DNA of 64,000 nt, from the NCBI RefSeq assembly GCF_016613535.2, contig NZ_CP071518.1, positions 3,472,001 through 3,536,000 of the forward strand, given 5' to 3'. This stretch comes from Lysobacter solisilvae. GTDB taxonomy: Bacteria; Pseudomonadota; Gammaproteobacteria; Xanthomonadales; Xanthomonadaceae. How positions within the stretch are numbered: the stretch's first letter is position 1; the number at the start of each line of letters is the position of its first letter. This document shows positions 3,255-29,062 of this stretch, one piece after another. The notes under the pieces were generated by a model, which saw nothing but the letters and a program-made list of their open reading frames with translations, was not told the DNA's origin and searched no databases. The translations under genes were made by a program, and so were the position numbers.

Positions 3255-4371
3255 TCAGCTCCGCGGCAGATGCAGCCGGAAGCTCGTCTTGCCCTTGTTC
3301 GACTCGGCGCTGATCGTGCCCGCATGCGCCTGGGCGATCTGGCTCACGATGAACAGGCCCAGGCCTAGGCTGGCCTGCTCCAGTTCCCCGCCGGAGACGC
3401 CGCCGCGCCGCAGCGGCTCGAACATCAGGTCCAGGGTCTCGCGGGGGATGGCCTCGCCGGGGTTGTCCACGACGATTTCTGCGCTGCCGCCTTCCTCGCG
3501 CAGTTCGACCAGGATCTCGCCGCCGCGCGTCCCGTACTTGAAGGCGTTGATCACCAGGTTGGCGAGCGCTTCGCGGATGCGGGCGGCGTCGAACATGCCG
3601 CGCACCGCCGCAGGCGACTGGAAACGGATGCGAAGGTCGGGCATCGAGGTCTGCAGCAGGTCGATTTCCTCCCGGCACGCCTGCACCAGGTCGATGTCGC
3701 GCCGCTTGACCTCGAAGCCCATGCCCATCTGCGCGCGGTTGTACACCAGCAGCTTGTCCAGCAGCTCGCGCATGCGCTCGCCGCTGCGGATGAGCCGCTG
3801 CGCGGCGGCGGCGATCGGCGCATCGACCGCCATTTGGGCGATGGTTTCGGAAGTCATCACGATCGCGCTGAGCGGGCTGCGCAGGTCGTGGCCCAGCACG
3901 CCCAGGAAGATGTTGCGCCAGCGTTCCACTTCCACCGCGTAATGGCTGACCGACTCGGCGATGGCCTCGTCGATCGCCTCGTTGAACCGGGTGACGTCAT
4001 CGGCCGAGGCAACATGGCCCGGCGCATCCGCCCACAGCCGCAGCACCGACGCGCGCAGGGCGCGGTATTCGGAGACCAGGGTGCGAGATGCTGTAACCGC
4101 TGTGGGCGCGATGCAGGGCGTGCGTGCCTGCCGCCGAGCGGGTGCTGCCGACCGCCGACACCGCGCGGCCGTGCGACTTCTCGATTTCCTCGGCACGCGT
4201 CTGCGGCCTGCGCAAATCCGCCACGATCGCCTCGACGATGTCGGGCAGGTGGTCGCGCAGGGCGACGTCGTCCAGCGGCGTGCCGACCTCCACCGACCGG
4301 GCGAAGGTGATCGCGTCATCGATGATCGTTTCGGCGTGTCCTTCGATGAAGTCCGCCAGCCCGCTGCCCAT
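3255..4371 (-). CDS. Sensor histidine kinase 1 with RsbRD-like N-terminus (one +1 frameshift)
   Basis: A probable cytoplasmic sensor histidine kinase of about 371 residues when one extra base is removed. The N-terminal ~65 residues (GLADFIEGHAETIIDDAITF) resemble the RsbRD-type kinase sensor domain. After a linker ending THALHRAHSGYS comes a second helical region, then the H-box GVLGHDLRSPL (phospho-acceptor His near residue 160), the N-box NLVINAFKYGTRGG and the G-box LGLGLFIVSQIAQAH. The frame breaks at GGG 4079-4081, where the paralogue at 9.7-11.0 kb has two bases. This fits the window-wide +1 pattern and is probably an assembly error. There is no membrane segment and no adjacent response regulator, so it is an orphan kinase. 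Confidence 0.8.
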
Positions 4372-4474
4372 GTGCGTCCATCCGGTTCGCCGGGAAATCC
4401 CTCGAGCATCCTAGGCCATTCCCCCTGGCCCGGCCGGCGGGCATCGGCCAGGGCCCGGCTGACTGGCGCCCACC

Positions 4475-14740: not shown

Positions 14741-15079
14741 CAACCGGTGCGACGACCGGGCGCCCGCGCACATGCGGCAGGTCCGGAGCGGCGGCGATCA
14801 TCGCCCGCCCGGAATCGACGGCGCGGCGCCGCTACGCCGACTCGGCGTATTTCCTGCCGCCCACCCCGTCCGGGTCGGCCCGCTTTCTCCGTATCCCTCT
14901 TTCAACGCAGATCGTGGCGGTGCCCCGCGCACCGACCCAGACCCACCCGCGGTCTGCGTTGCTTCGCTGTTTGCCGACGCATTTCGGTAGATGAGCAGTT
15001 ACGCCGCACGGACCGCGGCGAAGCATGGACATCCGGCCAAACCCGGACTTGCAGATGGACAACCACGGAAGACACGCAG

Positions 15080-15550
15080 ATGCAGAATTTGATTTCAATC
15101 ACCCTGACCGACCAGGACCTGGCCGACTTCGACGAGGCCCTCGCCACCCTGCGCCGGCTGATGGCGCCAATGGTGTCGCTCCAGGCCGCCGACCGCCGGG
15201 AACTGAGCAAGATGGGCCCCAAGTCAGAGGCCTTCTGCAGCCAGACCCTCGCGGTCCTGGCCAACAACCCCGGCATGGTCCCGCCCAACCTCGGCTTCCC
15301 CGAGGCGCAGGCGGACTACAAGACCCTGCAACAGCTCCGCCCCCGCTTCGCCCTCCTCCGCCAGCTGGCCGAAAAGTCCGACGACAGCGAACTGGCCCTG
15401 GGCAGCGACCTCATGGCCTGCTGCCTGGAGGGCTACCGCCTGATGTCCGGCGCCGGCCAGGCCGAGTCCCTGAAGGCCGCCCGCCGCGCGCTGTCGCAGC
15501 GCTTCGCCCGAAGGGCGGGCGCCGGGGAGCCGGAGGTGCCGCAGTCCTAG
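15080..15550 (+). CDS. Conserved hypothetical all-alpha protein
   Basis: This 156-residue protein starts MQNLISITLTDQDLADFDEA and appears entirely helical. It resembles a widely scattered uncharacterised family whose members share an N-terminal ISVTLT strand, an ELSKMGPKSEAFC block, a PPNLGF element and a C-terminal helix LMACCLEGYRLMSGAGQAES. No function is known to me. The start is the first Met matching this pattern, and upstream in-frame codons are Pro/Arg-rich non-coding shadow. A series of short direct repeats, a REP element and a strong terminator follow it. Confidence 0.75.
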   Translation: MQNLISITLTDQDLADFDEALATLRRLMAPMVSLQAADRRELSKMGPKSEAFCSQTLAVLANNPGMVPPNLGFPEAQADYKTLQQLRPRFALLRQLAEKSDDSELALGSDLMACCLEGYRLMSGAGQAESLKAARRALSQRFARRAGAGEPEVPQS

Positions 15551-15562
15551 TCGTGGTTCCGT

Positions 15563-15660
15563 CTGATCGCCTTTCACTCCTGATCGTCTTTCAGTCCTGA
15601 TCGTCGTTCAGTCCTGATCGTCATTTCAGCCCTGATCGTCATTTCAGCCCTGATCGTCAT
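15563..15660. repeat. Six tandem copies of a 17-19 bp repeat
   Basis: The unit TCCTGATCGTCNTTTCAG is repeated about six times right after the stop codon at 15550, with single-base and one-base-length variation between copies. The last copy runs into a REP-like element (CATCCCCGCGAACGCGGGGATCC, positions about 15658-15680). Both are upstream of the terminator at 15702. Confidence 0.8.
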
Positions 15661-15701: not shown

Positions 15702-15747
15702 AGCCCGGCGGATCGGCCAAGCGCCTGATCCGCCGGGCTTTTTTATT
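15702..15747 (+). terminator. Strong rho-independent terminator
   Basis: A perfect 13-bp stem, AGCCCGGCGGATC at 15702-15714 with GATCCGCCGGGCT at 15727-15739, is followed by TTTTTTATT. It ends transcription from the upstream conserved hypothetical gene and insulates the 21-bp array that starts a few bases later. Confidence 0.92.
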
Positions 15748-15750
15748 GCG

Positions 15751-16086
15751 CCGAGCTCGGAGCTCGGCCCGTGGGGATAAGTGCTCGGCCCGTGGGGATA
15801 AGTGCTCGGCGGGTGGGGATAAGTGCTCGGCGGGCCGAGCGAAAAGCTCGGGGCGCCGAGTAAATTGCTCGGGCTGCCGAGCGAATTGCTCGGGGGGCGG
15901 AGCTTTTTGCTCGGGAGGCCGAGCGAAAGGCTCGGGGTGCCGAGCTCAGAAGGCGGGGGGCCGAGCGATTTGCTCGGGGCGCGGGAAGTTTTGCTCGGGG
16001 CGCCGAGTAAAAAGGGCGGCGGTCGGGAATTTGAGCTCGGGGGGCCGAGCACTTATCCCCAACAGTGCAGAAGTTATCCCCACGGG
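15751..16086. repeat. 21-bp periodic hairpin array with DnaA-box-like ends
   Basis: The hexamer GCTCGG recurs at exact 21-bp steps: 15762, 15783, 15804, 15825, 15846, 15867, 15888, 15909, 15930, (15951 diverged), 15972, 15993, (16014 diverged), 16035. Between hexamers most units carry CCGAG(C) and a short variable AT-rich core (GAAAA, TAAATT, GAATT, TTTTT, GATTT, GTTTT), so each unit can fold as CCGAGC-core-GCTCGG. The three leftmost units carry TGGGGATAAGT instead. Two inverted copies (TTATCCCCA) close the right end at about 16053-16061 and 16073-16081. Because 21 bp is seven codons, several spurious ORFs run through it. It lies between a terminator and hsdR. Confidence 0.9.
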
Positions 16087-16242: not shown

Positions 16243-18648
16243 ATGACCGTGGCCGGCATCGCGGGAAACCAGATCGACAAGAAGTCACTATCGGAGCGTG
16301 ACATCTGCACGCAGTTCATCGTGCCGGCTCTCAACCGGGCGGGATGGGACTTCGAGCTCCAGGTCCGTGAAGAGGTCTCGTTCACTAAGGGCCGCATCAT
16401 CGTCCGCGGCAAGCTGCATACCAGGGGCGAGGCCAGGCGCGCCGATTTCGTCCTGTACCACCGGCCCAATCTGCCCCTCGCCGTGATCGAGGCGAAGGAC
16501 AACAAACATTCGGTCGGCTCGGGCATGCAACAGGCCCTAGGCTATGCAGACGACCTGCAAGTGCCCTTCGTGTTCTCCAGCAATGGCGACGGGTTCCAGT
16601 TCCACGACCGCACGGGCCTCTCCGATCCGGTCGAGCAAGAGCTGACGCTGGACCAGTTCCCAACCCCGCAGGAACTGTGGCGGCGTTACTGCCAATGGAA
16701 AGGACTGGCTGACGGCGCGGCCGAGCGAGTCGAGGCGCCGTACTACGACGACGGGTCCGGCCGCAGCCCCCGTTACTACCAGGTCAACGCCATCAACCGG
16801 ACCGTCGAGGCAGTTGCCCGCGGCCAGGATCGCATCCTGCTGGTCATGGCCACTGGCACGGGCAAGACCTACACCGCCTTCCAGATCATCTGGCGACTTT
16901 GGAAGTCCAGGCAGAAGAAGCGCATTCTGTTTCTGGCCGACCGCAACATCCTCGTCGACCAGACGCGCAACAACGACTTCAAGCCGTTCGGCGCGCCAAT
17001 GACCAAGATCGCCAAGCGCCAGATCGACACCTCCTACGAGATCTACCTGTCGCTTTATCAGGCGGTCACGGGCAACGAGGAGGAGAAAAACATATACCGG
17101 CAGTTCTCGCGGGACTTCTTCGACCTGGTCGTCGTGGACGAGTGTCATCGCGGCAGCGCGGCCGAGGATTCAGCTTGGCGCGAGGTGCTGGAATACTTCT
17201 CCGGTGCGACCCATATAGGCCTCACGGCCACGCCCAAGGAAACCCGCGAAGTCTCCAGCACGCTCTATTTTGGCGATCCAGTCTACAGCTACAGCCTCAA
17301 ACAGGGCATTGAGGACGGCTTCCTGGCGCCCTACAAGGTCGTGCGCATCGACTTCGACCGCGACCTGCAGGGCTGGCGGCCGCCCAAGGGCATGAAGGAC
17401 AAGCACGGCAACGAGATCGAGGACCGCATCTACAACCTGAGCGACATGGACCGGAACCTGGTCCTGGAGGCGCGTACCCATGCCGTTGCCCAGAAGGTCA
17501 CCGAATACCTGGCCACCGATCCCTACCAGAAGACCATCATCTTCTGCGACGACATCGACCATGCCGAGCGCATGCGCCAGGCGCTGGTCAATCTCAACCC
17601 GGAACGCGTCCGCGAAAACCGCAAGTACGTCATGCGCATCACCGGAGACGACAAGGAAGGCAAGGCCGAGCTGGATAACTTCATCAACCCGGAAGAACGG
17701 TATCCGGTCATCGCCACCACCAGCAAGCTGATGACCACGGGGGTCGATGCACAGACCTGCAAGCTCATCGTGCTCGACCAGCACATCAAATCGATGACCG
17801 AGTTCAAGCAGATAATCGGCCGTGGCACCCGCATCAACGAGGACTACGGCAAATACTGGTTCACGATCATGGATTTCAAGAAGGCGACCGAGCTGTTCGC
17901 CGATCCCGCCTTCGATGGCGATCCAGTGCAGATCTACAGTCCCGGCCCTGGCCAATCGCCTGTCCCGCCGGATGAGGGCGTTGAAGTGGATGGAGGTACG
18001 GGCAGTGCGGACGTGGAAGGTGGCGTGGACGCGGATGGCCGGCGCGGCGAACCGCGCATCCGCTACGTGGTCGACAACCTCCCCGTCACCGTCGTAGCCG
18101 AGCGCGTCCAGTATTACGGGCCGGATGGCCGTCTCATCACCGAATCGCTCAAGGACTACACCCGCGAGCGGGTCCGGCGCCAGTTCGCCTCGCTCGACGA
18201 GTTCCTGCGCCGGTGGTCCGATGCAGCGCAGAAAAAGGCCATCATTCAGGAGCTGGCCGAACAGGGCGTGCTGTGGGAGGCGCTGTCGGAAGAGGTGGAA
18301 GTCAAGCTTGGCAAGCAGCTAGACCCGTTCGACCTGGTCTGCCATGTCGCCTTCGACCAGCCCCCGTTGTCGCGCAGGGAACGCGCGGACAACGTGCGAA
18401 AGCGCAACTACTTCGCCCGATATGGTGGCGCCGCGCGCCAGGTGCTGGAAGGCCTGCTCGACAAGTATGCCGATACGGGAGTCGAGCACATCGAAGACAT
18501 CCGCATCCTGCAGCTGGATCCTTTCCGCCGGCTGGGTGCACCAATGGAACTGGTGTCCAGCCTTGGCGGGCGTGACGGCTACCTGCAGGCGGTGCGTGAC
18601 CTTGAAGACCAGCTGTACACCGCGAGCAATGACGGCGCCGCAGCCTGA
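16243..18648 (+). CDS. hsdR: Type I restriction enzyme, R (motor and nuclease) subunit
   Basis: This 801-residue HsdR is the translocase and endonuclease subunit of a type I restriction-modification complex. The N-terminal nuclease motif is present (Asp68 in ADFVLYH, then Glu83-x-Lys85 in AVIEAKD), followed by helicase motif [13 protein letters not shown] (about residues 203-214), motif [11 protein letters not shown] (about 296-304) and motif [13 protein letters not shown]. The C-terminal ~200 residues match the EcoEI-type R C-terminal domain, suggesting a type IB-like enzyme. It starts after a strong ribosome-binding site (GAGGGGGA). The gene is intact. hsdM follows after 73 bases. Confidence 0.96.
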
Positions 18649-18721
18649 TCATTCCGCAGAATTTTCTCATCCCTGACCATCGCGCGGTGACCAAATCCCG
18701 CGCCCAGAAGAAGAAGACCGC

Positions 18722-20191
18722 ATGTCTATCGGCTCCACCATCAAATCCATCCAGGACATCATGCGCAAGGATGTCGGCGTCGACGGCGACGCCCAGCGCA
18801 TCGGCCAGCTGGTCTGGATGCTGTTCCTCAAAATTCTTGACGACCGCGAGCAGGAATGGGAGTTGCTCAACGAGGATTACCGCTCGCCATTGCCGCAGCG
18901 GTTGCGCTGGCGGACTTGGGCAGCCGACCCGGAAGGCATCACCGGCGACGAACTGAAGGAGTTCATCGACAACGACCTGTTCCCGTCGCTGCGTGAGCTG
19001 GCGCCGCGCCAGAACAAGCCGCTGGGCTACGTCGTACGGGACGTGTTCCAGGACGCCTACAACTACATGAAGTCAGGCCAACTGCTGCGCCAGGTCGTCA
19101 ACAAGATCCAGGCCGGTGTGGACTTCAACAAGGCGCAGGAACGCCATGCCTTCGGCGATATGTACGAGCAGTTACTGCGTGACCTTCAGGCGGCCGGCAA
19201 TGCAGGTGAGTTCTACACGCCGCGCCCGGTCACCGAGTTCATGGTGCGCATGGTCGACCCAAAGCTGCACGAAACGGTGATGGATCCGGCCTGCGGCACC
19301 GGCGGCTTCCTGACCTGCACTATCGAACACAAGCGCAAGAATTACGTCCGAACCGCCGAGGACGAACAGGTTTTGCAGGCCAGCATCCTGGGCGTCGAGA
19401 AAAAGCCGCTGCCGCACCTGCTGGCCACCACCAACATGGTCCTGCACGGGATCGAGGTGCCCAGCCAGGTCCGGCACGACAACACCCTGTCCCGACCGTT
19501 GACGAGTTGGGGACCGGGCGAGCGGGTGGACTGCGTGGTCGCCAATCCCCCGTTCGGCGGCATGGAGGAAGACGGCATCGAGAACAACTTCCCGTCGGCC
19601 TTCCGCACGCGCGAAACGGCCGACCTGTTCCTCGTTCTGATCATGCAGGTGCTCAAGTCGGGCGGTCGCGCGGCGGTGGTCCTGCCCGACGGTTTCCTAT
19701 TCGGCGAGGGCATCAAGAGTCGGATCAAGGAAAAGCTGCTAACGGAGTGCAACCTGCACACCGTCGTCCGCCTACCCAACGGCGTGTTCAACCCCTACAC
19801 CGGCATCAAGACCAACCTCCTTTTCTTCACCAAGGGCACACCGACCCGCGAGGTGTGGTTCTACGAGCACCAGTATCCTGCCGGCACGAAGAGCTATTCC
19901 AAGACAAAGCCCATGCGCGTCGAGGAGTTTGCGGTCGAGGCAGCTTGGTGGGGTAGCGAGACCGACGGCTACGCCGCGCGGGTGGAGAACGCATTCGCTT
20001 GGAAGGTCGGTGTCGATGATCTTAAGGCGCGGAACTGGAATCTGGACTGCAAGAACCCGCACGTGGGTGAACAAATTAGTCACGATCCCGACGAACTCCT
20101 CTGCCAGTATGAAAAGCTGCAGGGCCAAGTCAGCGAGCTGCGTAATCAGCTCCGGACCATGCTGGCCGAAGCGCTGGAGCGAGGCCAATGA
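18722..20191 (+). CDS. hsdM: Type I restriction-modification, DNA adenine methyltransferase subunit
   Basis: This 489-residue HsdM methylates the N6 of adenine within the site chosen by HsdS. An N-terminal helical bundle (IQDIMRKDVGVDGDAQRIGQ) is followed by the methyltransferase core, with AdoMet motif I DPACGTGGFL (about residue 188) and the catalytic motif NPPFGG (Asn275). The length is normal for the family. Its stop overlaps the hsdS start by four bases (ATGA), indicating translational coupling so that M and S are made together. A purine-rich AGAAGAAGAAG ribosome site precedes the ATG. Confidence 0.97.
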   Translation: MSIGSTIKSIQDIMRKDVGVDGDAQRIGQLVWMLFLKILDDREQEWELLNEDYRSPLPQRLRWRTWAADPEGITGDELKEFIDNDLFPSLRELAPRQNKPLGYVVRDVFQDAYNYMKSGQLLRQVVNKIQAGVDFNKAQERHAFGDMYEQLLRDLQAAGNAGEFYTPRPVTEFMVRMVDPKLHETVMDPACGTGGFLTCTIEHKRKNYVRTAEDEQVLQASILGVEKKPLPHLLATTNMVLHGIEVPSQVRHDNTLSRPLTSWGPGERVDCVVANPPFGGMEEDGIENNFPSAFRTRETADLFLVLIMQVLKSGGRAAVVLPDGFLFGEGIKSRIKEKLLTECNLHTVVRLPNGVFNPYTGIKTNLLFFTKGTPTREVWFYEHQYPAGTKSYSKTKPMRVEEFAVEAAWWGSETDGYAARVENAFAWKVGVDDLKARNWNLDCKNPHVGEQISHDPDELLCQYEKLQGQVSELRNQLRTMLAEALERGQ

Positions 20192-21870
20192 CTGCGCAGC
20201 TCGTCGAGAATATGCCGCTGCTGGCGGGCGCCCCCAATGGCATTCAAAGGCTCCGTGAGTTAATTCTTGAGCTGGCAGCGCGCGGGAAGTTGGTGCCGCA
20301 AGACCCGAGGGATGCACCGGCTCGTGAGTTGCTGAGGGATATTTCCAAAGAAAGATCGAAGCTGATGGCGGAGGGAAAGATCCGCAAGCAGAAGGCCCAA
20401 GCAGAAATCAATGATGAGGGGAAGCCGTACGAGTTGCCTGCTGGATGGCAATGGACGCGACTTGCAGAGGTTGGTCATGATTGGGGGCAGAAAACTCCGA
20501 ATCGGGATTTCACCTATATCGACGTCGGCTCCATTGACAACGCCGCCGGCGTGATCAAAGACCCACAGATTTTGACGGCAAAGTCGGCACCTTCGCGGGC
20601 ACGAAAGCTCGTCAGGCGTGGAACGGTCATCTACTCAACGATCCGTCCGTATCTTCTGAATGTGGCGGTCATTGATCAAGATTATGCGCAAGAGCCCATC
20701 GCGAGCACTGCGTTTGCAGTTGTTCACCCCTATCTGGCCATGCCGTCAAGGTACTTCTTTTGGTACCTGCGGAGCCCTGTTTTTGTTCGTTACGTTGAAT
20801 CAGTACAGATGGGCATTGCCTATCCGGCAATCAACGATGGCCAATTCTTCAGCGGGCTGATTCCGCTCCCTCCCCTCGCCGAGCAACACCGCATCGTCGA
20901 CAAAGTCGATGAGCTCATGGCGCTATGCGACAGACTGGAAGCCCGCCAGGAAGGTGCCGAAAGCGTGCACGCGCAACTGGTTCGTGCGCTGCTCGACAGC
21001 CTGACTCAAGCCGTCGATGCCGAAGACTTCGCTGCTAGCTGGCAGCGTTTGGCCGAACACTTCCACACCCTGTTCACCACCGAATCCAGCGTCGACGCTC
21101 TCAAGCAGGCAGTGCTGCAATTGGCCGTGATGGGCAAGCTGGTTCCGCAAGATCAAGGCGATGAACCAGCTAGTGAGTTGCTCGAGCGAATTTCTCAGAG
21201 AAAGGCGCAACTAGTGGCTGAGGGGAAGGTTAGAAAGCAAACCGCATTGCCCGAGGTTGAGACTAATGAGTGGCCCTACGTACTGCCATCGAGCTGGAGA
21301 TGGGTACGGTTTGGCTCGATCTCAGAAACACGCCTCGGAAAGATGCTCGATAGCGCAAAGAACAAGGGGACGCTGCGGCCTTACCTCCGAAACACCAATG
21401 TTCAGTGGTTTACGTTTGAACTCGATGACCTCAAGAAGATGCGATTTGAAGACCAAGAGCGTCATGAGTACCGGGTTAGTCCGGGAGACCTGGTTATTTG
21501 CGAAGGGGGGGAGCCGGGGAGGTGTGCTGTCTGGCAGAGCGACGTTGAAGAAATGTTTATTCAGAAGGCTCTACATCGCGCTCGCCCTTGGCTGGGCGTT
21601 TCACCATTCTTTATTCAGTTTTGCTTGAAGGTAGGCGCTCAATCAGGGTTGCTTGATCGGTACTTCACTGGGGCAACCATCAAGCATTTGTCTGGCGAGA
21701 AGCTGGCGCGGTATCCCATACAGCTTCCCCCAGTAGCTGAACAACATCGAATCGTTGCCAAAGTGAATCAACTGATGGCCCTCTGCGACCAACTCAACGC
21801 CCGCCTGAGTCAGGCCCGCCAGATGCAAGAGCATCTGGCCAACGCCTTGGTCGAGCAGGCCGTAGCCTGA
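20188..21870 (+). CDS. hsdS: Type I restriction-modification, specificity subunit
   Basis: This 560-residue HsdS has two target-recognition domains and two-fold sequence symmetry. The conserved spacer blocks occur twice: LAARGKLVPQDPRD at about 30 and LAVMGKLVPQDQGD at about 315, then PPLAEQHRIVDKVDELMALC and PPVAEQHRIVAKVNQLMALC. Each recognition domain lies between these repeats and should read one half of a bipartite target. The target cannot be read from sequence. Base composition of the recognition domains (around 20.4-20.8 and 21.3-21.7 kb) is noticeably lower in GC than the neighbours, as expected for recombining specificity genes. No inverted partial hsdS copy is present, so phase variation is not indicated. 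Confidence 0.96.
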   Translation: MTAQLVENMPLLAGAPNGIQRLRELILELAARGKLVPQDPRDAPARELLRDISKERSKLMAEGKIRKQKAQAEINDEGKPYELPAGWQWTRLAEVGHDWGQKTPNRDFTYIDVGSIDNAAGVIKDPQILTAKSAPSRARKLVRRGTVIYSTIRPYLLNVAVIDQDYAQEPIASTAFAVVHPYLAMPSRYFFWYLRSPVFVRYVESVQMGIAYPAINDGQFFSGLIPLPPLAEQHRIVDKVDELMALCDRLEARQEGAESVHAQLVRALLDSLTQAVDAEDFAASWQRLAEHFHTLFTTESSVDALKQAVLQLAVMGKLVPQDQGDEPASELLERISQRKAQLVAEGKVRKQTALPEVETNEWPYVLPSSWRWVRFGSISETRLGKMLDSAKNKGTLRPYLRNTNVQWFTFELDDLKKMRFEDQERHEYRVSPGDLVICEGGEPGRCAVWQSDVEEMFIQKALHRARPWLGVSPFFIQFCLKVGAQSGLLDRYFTGATIKHLSGEKLARYPIQLPPVAEQHRIVAKVNQLMALCDQLNARLSQARQMQEHLANALVEQAVA

Positions 21871-28820: not shown

Positions 28821-29062
28821 GTTCGCGGCGATCGTCTGCCCCCATCCCAACCTTCCCCCGCGAAGCGGGGGAAGGGGCTGATGCGCGGCGATCGTTGGCC
28901 CCCATCCCAACCTTCCCCCGCGAAGCGGGGGAAGGGGCTGATGCGCGGCGATCGTTGGCCCCCATCCCAACCTTCCCCCGCGAAGCGGGGGAAGGGGCTG
29001 ATGCGCGGCGATCGTTGGCCCCCATCCCAACCTTCCCCCGCGGAGCGGGGGAAGGGGCCAAG
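28821..29062. repeat. 60-bp tandem repeat, about four copies
   Basis: A 60-bp unit repeats head to tail with almost no variation: positions 28861-28920, 28921-28980 and 28981-29040 are identical except near the ends, with diverged copies on each side. Each unit contains the hairpin CCTTCCCCCGC-GAA-GCGGGGGAAGG. Related single hairpins occur at 3031 and 28695. The array is 85 bases before mrfA and downstream of nothing on that strand, so it could affect mrfA transcription. The ORFs through it are artefacts of the period. The rest of 28624-29144 has no gene. Confidence 0.92.

Follow-up and report, generated by a model that had tools for sequence, protein, structure and literature searches.

What is the function of a run of 21-bp palindromic units that ends just upstream of a type I restriction operon? 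We analysed a 64,000-nucleotide stretch of the Lysobacter solisilvae genome (the window; contig NZ_CP071518.1, positions 3,472,001 to 3,536,000), in which such a run had been noticed at 15751–16086 from the letters alone. The original prediction read the exact spacing as a sign of selection for geometry, and proposed cooperative protein binding, a multi-hairpin transcript or control of the restriction genes. We consider it probable that the array belongs, as the home copy, to class IX of a family of DNA elements dispersed across the genome, that every class has its own paralogue of an undescribed helical protein (~155 aa) as a partner, and that this cognate protein binds its own class.

The window array and its class IX copies

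The periodicity proved real. Within 15751–16086 the strongest self-match fell at lag 21 (score 0.648), followed by lags 42 and 63, and none of 1,000 dinucleotide shuffles attained this value (at most 0.407, taking the top of 65 lags). GCTCGG occurs 13 times in this stretch, 12 times in a single phase modulo 21. The class IX unit reads CCGAGC-5 nt-GCTCGG-4 nt (6+5+6+4 = 21), and 15 units stand in register from 15751 to 16061; with one extra end box, the home copy occupies 15751..16082 and, like its parts, carries no strand assignment. As predicted, the 5-nt core is AT-rich and differs from unit to unit, neighbouring units being ~65% identical on average. The predicted conservation of the CCGAG partner stood for its phase, which all nine occurrences share, but the exact sequence is present in 9 of the 15 units only and is replaced elsewhere by cgggaa, tgggga or similar.

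Beyond what had been described, the array carries inverted boxes at its ends. Three left boxes, TGGGGATAAGT, follow each other at 21-bp steps (15772..15824, starting at 15772, 15793 and 15814), and two right boxes, ACTTATCCCCA, inverted relative to the left ones, lie 21 bp apart (16051..16082, starting at 16051 and 16072, the outer one at 16072 with one mismatch). The internal units between them (15825..16050) are dyads of CCGAGC-5 nt-GCTCGG in which one arm is sometimes cgggaa, aggcgg or gggcgg. The predicted terminator on the left could be seen directly as a terminator-like inverted repeat with a T run (15702..15744, + strand, as read in the sequence) between the array and a gene at 15080..15550, and a similar repeat precedes the array at locus L013 of the related genome G002. 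Between gene and terminator lies a separate 17-bp tandem repeat (CTGATCGTCATTTCAGTC, 15563–15660). Elsewhere in the window, at 28824–29058, a 60-bp tandem repeat comprises 3.9 almost identical copies (98% matches).

The genome of the window (G000, one contig of 3.93 Mb) contains five class IX arrays, at ~310, 1067, 2090, 3248 and 3488 kb, the last being the window copy. Inverted boxes bound all five; each side has two to four of them, spaced 21 bp apart, and some carry one or two mismatches. Measured across the innermost left and right boxes, and counting both, four of the five copies span 248 bp, and their pairwise match (six pairs) is 67–76%; the fifth copy (L012) is degenerate and measures 230 bp. 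The number of units thus does not vary freely among class IX copies; the number of outer boxes shows some variation.

Downstream of the window array, hsdR starts at 16243, 160 bases past the last end box, and opens a type I restriction set of hsdR, hsdM and hsdS (Pfam; 16243–21870). This proximity is what had suggested a control region for the operon. However, the four other class IX copies lie at other sites, and 68 other array or paralogue loci (3.3–8 kb, including L089) contain no homologue of hsdR, hsdM or hsdS. In five further genomes, a gene for the helical protein adjoins such arrays instead. We therefore give hsdRMS control hardly any credence, while a local side effect of the array on hsdR is possible. 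In G002, the counterpart array (L089) is followed by a frame of 157 aa that has no Pfam match and by a gene for a Schlafen-group-3-helicase-like protein, and hsdR control as a general role was rejected.

Arrays of the class IX type occur in related bacteria. When 30 array loci were compared with the class IX template, a test that favours in-phase runs by design, 24 yielded in-register runs of 9–19 units, and these 24 span five genera of one family. At L099, L100 and L104 the run continues one base out of register, at L107 two registers compete, and L012, L090, L101, L102, L103 and L105 gave short runs or none. Many arrays alternate an AT core (AAAAA, TTTTT, TATTT) with a TCCGA/TCGGA core, producing a 42-bp repeat in which the strand relation between both cores is variable. 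In L. niastensis (L030) the unit spacing drifts (21–22 bp), with other palindromes interspersed, and in one array of this species the end boxes are direct rather than inverted. Three L. niastensis loci (L101, L102, L105) show GGTGAAA-TTTCACC palindromes together with GTGACTATTTGCTC units. A general reading of the arrays as a coding repeat of seven residues was rejected, since the best lags of other arrays (20, 43, 64, 86) are not multiples of 3.

Searches by pattern and by sequence differed in reach. The end-box pattern matched 13 stretches in a collection of named genomes, among them the one that we read, from Lysobacter niastensis. A search with (GCTC N17)x4 was noisy, matching at least 90 of 395 genomes, and the reversed control also matched many; thus, only places judged by eye were counted as arrays. 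With the window array as BLAST query, matches among 60 relatives were confined to G000 and G002. In the open literature, a passage of PMC6288370 gives the primer GAGGGGATAAGTGCG near a Lysobacter enzymogenes gene.

A helical protein encoded beside the arrays

The gene to the left of the window array (15080..15550, + strand) encodes the proposed cognate protein of 156 aa; its start, MQNLIS, was picked from homologues, and the open frame could begin at 14747. In the five further genomes mentioned above (three genera, counting that of the window), a homologue with 44–55% identity to the window protein directly adjoins a class IX-type array, and the array is always 3' of the gene. In G000 we found 12 gene matches, nine full-length paralogues and three fragments. 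All nine full-length paralogues have an array with a harmonic of ~21 bp within 1.3 kb, with scores of 0.506–0.905; the lowest, that of class VII, is barely above threshold. At L155 ~3936–4378 (G000 C1:313936-314377), ~3.3 kb away from the solo class IX copy at 310 kb, lie two homologue fragments, perhaps a decayed gene.

To pass our array test, a locus needed a self-match score of at least 0.5 and a best lag at a harmonic of ~21 bp. Among homologue loci, 36 of 52 passed (30 of 46 without the six that had first been found via their array), compared with none of 590 random 1.3-kb pieces taken from the window and five related loci, although a gene locus could pass on two sides and a random piece on one. 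In a second set, with loci taken from the gene search and the threshold fixed beforehand, 14 of 21 passed; this set is not fully independent, because it includes orthologues from near relatives and because some of the 38 genomes were picked for their arrays. The failing loci (16 of 52 and 7 of 21) include gene fragments, contig ends and several narrow misses at a harmonic lag. Protein similarity tracked array similarity (Mantel rho 0.33 over 36 pairs, not reached in any of 1,000 permutations, shared ancestry not being removed).

Of the 36 passing loci, 27 have the array 3' of the gene and nine have it 5' (L150-L153, L161, L162, L165, L134 and L136). In one sequence group, formed without a tree (L150-153, L161, L162 and L165), the array is 5' in seven of seven loci. 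Several home arrays come after a terminator-like hairpin. Array and gene did not coincide everywhere: of the 12 genomes in which class-IX-like arrays were recognised by eye, two (G246 and G258) gave no homologue at E 1e-3, and neither did G144, the genome richest in pattern matches, whose putative arrays are known from the pattern only.

What kind of protein is this? A structure model predicts with confidence an all-helical fold with one helix of 52 residues (pLDDT 89, pTM 0.68). The 156-aa protein had no match in Pfam (E up to 10) or NCBIfam and no significant one in the PDB, and the helical model gave no convincing fold match, fold comparison being a weak test for helical models. PADLOC and PHROG searches with the protein or its paralogues returned weak hits at most (best E 0.0052 and 0.03). 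Single paralogues matched Parb-CE (E 0.04) and AAA_31 (E 0.13), with nothing stronger for partition families, and two matched a Cas3 model (E 0.0074 at best). Across 26 divergent paralogues, one F and one G are the only invariant residues, which does not suggest an enzyme. The computed pI is below 7 in 20 of 26 family members, several of which were cut before the basic C-terminus, and the net charge ranges from -5 to +5.

The family is large. Three homologue searches returned 153, 1006 and 407 matches, 1006 being a lower bound (E 1e-3, 8000 candidates scored). Among the best 120 of each search, named entries are 'hypothetical' or 'uncharacterized', bar one automatic FlgN label; Zoogloea, Rhodanobacter, Hydrocarboniphaga and Burkholderiales are among the names in the protein matches listed. 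Among relatives, 24 of 119 genomes including G000 matched, two of them from another family of the order. In the wider phylum, where up to 12 candidates per genome were scored, at least two of 299 genomes matched: G000 and a member of its own family. Collections of plasmids, phages and viral contigs gave no match, the plasmid collection being queried with three family members. The prediction that no described element takes this form held for the libraries and papers searched, in which we found neither the arrays nor the protein family described.

Nine array classes and their solo copies in one chromosome

G000 holds at least 41 arrays, of which nine are home arrays and 32 are solo. They fall into nine classes whose unit sequences are unlike each other (for example AAAGCCAAACGCTGGG, GGACATATGCCCGCATATGTC and GGACGCGCGCGTCC), and all nine have nearly the same spacing of ~21 bp. 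With fragments of the other eight home arrays as BLAST queries, we found at least four solo copies of class I, eight each of classes III and V, seven of class IV and one of class VIII, in addition to the four of class IX; these counts are lower bounds, 40 of 77 candidates having been scored. Classes II, III and VI each gave one weak, short match, and class VII none among the candidates scored. By crude gene calls, 31 of the 32 solo arrays lie outside genes and one within a long open frame. Their contexts are 16 gaps between tandem, 10 between convergent and five between divergent genes; L207 was called tandem and appears convergent by eye. Some solo arrays overlap a gene call, by up to 255 bp (L212).

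With dnaA taken as the origin, the 41 arrays showed no bias towards origin or terminus (KS p 0.75). A further ~21-bp array lies between dnaA and the next gene, which we take to be dnaN (L263:740-1215; G000 C1 ~1031.0–1031.5 kb); a 79-aa piece of this neighbour had no Pfam match. The units of this array resemble AACCTCATCGCCAAGGTTCCG, over 420 bp it scores 0.52 (lag 21), and its 6-mers are nearest to class VI. As to whether the end boxes are DnaA boxes, TTATCCCCA adjoins TGTGGATAA boxes in stretches of related genomes that we took by eye to be oriC (L113, L115 and L116), and the dnaA-side stretch of G000 contains one TGTGGATAA and no TTATCCCCA. Six of the nine class V copies have motifs of the AGCTAC/GTAGCT type, defined post hoc, near their ends at a distance of 204–205 bp, and a stricter motif gives a span of 216 bp in four of nine. 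Special end units may thus extend beyond class IX.

At least one copy has spread as a unit. The class V copies L219 and L220, 613 kb apart, are 90.7% identical over 279 bp and no match extends beyond; on the right side of L219, the match runs into more array units. A match confined in this way indicates that arrays can spread as units. A unique register was clear for this pair (0.920 versus 0.654) and for L216/L217 (0.805 versus 0.693), whereas most class I and IV pairs had no clear unique register. The evidence for whole-array copying as opposed to local re-amplification is therefore mixed.

That most class I pairs favour no register would also fit a neutral minisatellite, in which arrays arise from slippage and the spacing is unselected, as would the one-base slips at L099, L100 and L104 and the homogenised 42-bp higher-order repeats of some arrays (G002). 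We regard this as very improbable. The 248 bp between the boxes has been kept in four of five class IX copies despite their divergence, and ~21 bp recurs in unlike units beside one protein family. Selection for geometry, as originally proposed, gains support from both findings.

We also compared solo sites with 752 kb of G002, where both flanks were found for 8 of the 35 solo or weak sites of G000. One of these (L215) was left out, its flanks being 4.6 kb apart in G002. The array is absent at six of the remaining seven sites, with self-match at background level (0.38–0.43); at the L207 site, just 33 bp separate the matched flanks. The L196 site scored 0.518 at lag 82 and by eye holds another degenerate repeat. 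The empty sites would fit equally an array gained by G000 or one lost from G002. In contrast to these solo sites, the gene-side array is common to several genera. Two more periodic stretches (lags 21 and 64) came up in the 752-kb scan of G002, at C7:172541-172847, which may be coding, and at C6:347682-347973.

Proposed protein binding, possible mobility and known repeat systems

Palindromic units can act as RNA or as DNA. If transcribed, they might serve as repeated terminators, as an RNA sponge or as an RNA resembling a type III antitoxin; the palindromes themselves, T or A runs in some cores and the terminator-like hairpin ahead of several home arrays would suit such a role. Hairpins should leave covariation between their arms. 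In 24 arrays, all of the class IX type, the fraction paired was 0.69 and 0.715 in the two hairpin registers, slightly below shuffles. Moreover, the strand relation of AT to TCCGA cores is not constant, the array stands 5' of the gene in a quarter of the passing loci, and no Rfam match reached gathering scores. We therefore consider the multi-hairpin transcript of the original prediction, and hairpin RNA in general, improbable. Without covariation, each arm would act as an independent half-site, and recognition of double-stranded DNA fits better than hairpins.

Cooperative protein binding, with a candidate binder encoded next door, is our best reading of these data. Each class is a ~200–700-bp run of ~21-bp units (two helical turns), which in most classes consist of inverted half-sites. 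Under this model, each paralogue, encoded beside its home array, would bind its own array class as double-stranded DNA, and dimers on successive units would assemble cooperatively along one helix face; two-turn spacing in nine unlike classes fits proteins that touch along one face. Solo arrays could then serve as extra binding platforms for the cognate protein, most likely so that sites on the chromosome are bridged or marked. Several observations speak against binding: most of the proteins are acidic, no fold match was obtained, and some array genomes have no detectable homologue.

More tentatively, the nine classes may constitute orthogonal address systems, in which each helical paralogue polymerises on its own two-turn-phased array class and ties dispersed sites together, as a fast-evolving layer of chromosome organisation that has spread as mobile arrays. 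Our data suggest a protein-and-DNA-array system of a new kind, dispersed over the genome. The linkage to arrays of unlike sequence but like geometry provides a direct handle on a family of at least 1006 homologues without assigned function in the libraries searched. If pairing means binding, a single genome would offer nine natural pairs of protein and site, with as many as nine sites per pair, in which the evolution of array recognition and bacterial chromosome organisation could be studied.

A rather unlikely alternative, which may nevertheless be compatible with protein-binding arrays, is that the arrays are selfish, non-autonomous mobile elements and that the helical protein, alone or as one component, copies or inserts them, much as the RAYT transposase does for REPINs. 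The inverted end boxes, the sharp limits of the L219/L220 match, the six G002 sites without array and the presence of one gene with several solo arrays in classes I, III, IV, V and IX agree with such mobility. In contrast, neither the window protein nor any of 26 paralogues matched a transposase family (E up to 1 for the paralogues), no shared catalytic set is visible, no target-site duplication was seen by eye, and hairpin pairing is not conserved. If the arrays are mobile, they would form a dispersed-repeat system without a recognisable transposase.

Several known systems resemble parts of this arrangement. In ParB/parS and in plasmid iteron or centromere arrays, a gene stands beside an array of sites, the repeats are helically phased, and the binder is cooperative. 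The gene adjoining the array and the helical phasing are found here as well, but a Pfam scan of ten neighbouring window proteins revealed no ParA/ParB-type family, one chromosome carries nine classes with dispersed solo arrays, and the plasmid collection held no match to the family members queried. Type III toxin-antitoxin systems such as ToxIN combine a protein gene with a short tandem repeat and a terminator between them. The combination of gene, tandem repeat and intervening terminator is shared, but the ToxIN repeat is transcribed as a structured RNA upstream of the toxin gene, whereas our arrays are mostly 3' of the gene, have arms without covariation, occur as solo copies and adjoin a gene whose protein has no Pfam match. 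CRISPR arrays likewise have regularly spaced conserved blocks and variable cores. Their spacers are unique and ~30 bp long, while the cores described here measure 5 bp, many are common to several arrays, the period is 21 bp, and no cas family occurs among the same ten proteins.

Closest in distribution are extragenic palindromic repeats. BIMEs are extragenic arrays of palindromic units, a likeness that extends to tandem REP arrays. As described in passages of PMC3116915 and PMC3733652, genomes with REPIN/RAYT systems contain several classes of repeats, and each class lies near a particular gene; the copies are extragenic, dispersed and palindromic. Dispersed extragenic copies and one gene per repeat class are likewise present in G000. 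However, the Y1/HUH tyrosine transposase that defines RAYT systems is not matched by the cognate protein, and REP doublets form hairpins, whereas the conserved pairing that marks a REPIN is absent from the 24 class IX-type arrays, which are phased at two helical turns with arms that do not covary. Tandem REP arrays of the GI and GIII types have spacings of 112 and 72 bp according to a passage of PMC3116915; the arrays of G000 differ from them by their 21-bp spacing and by one helical-protein gene per class.
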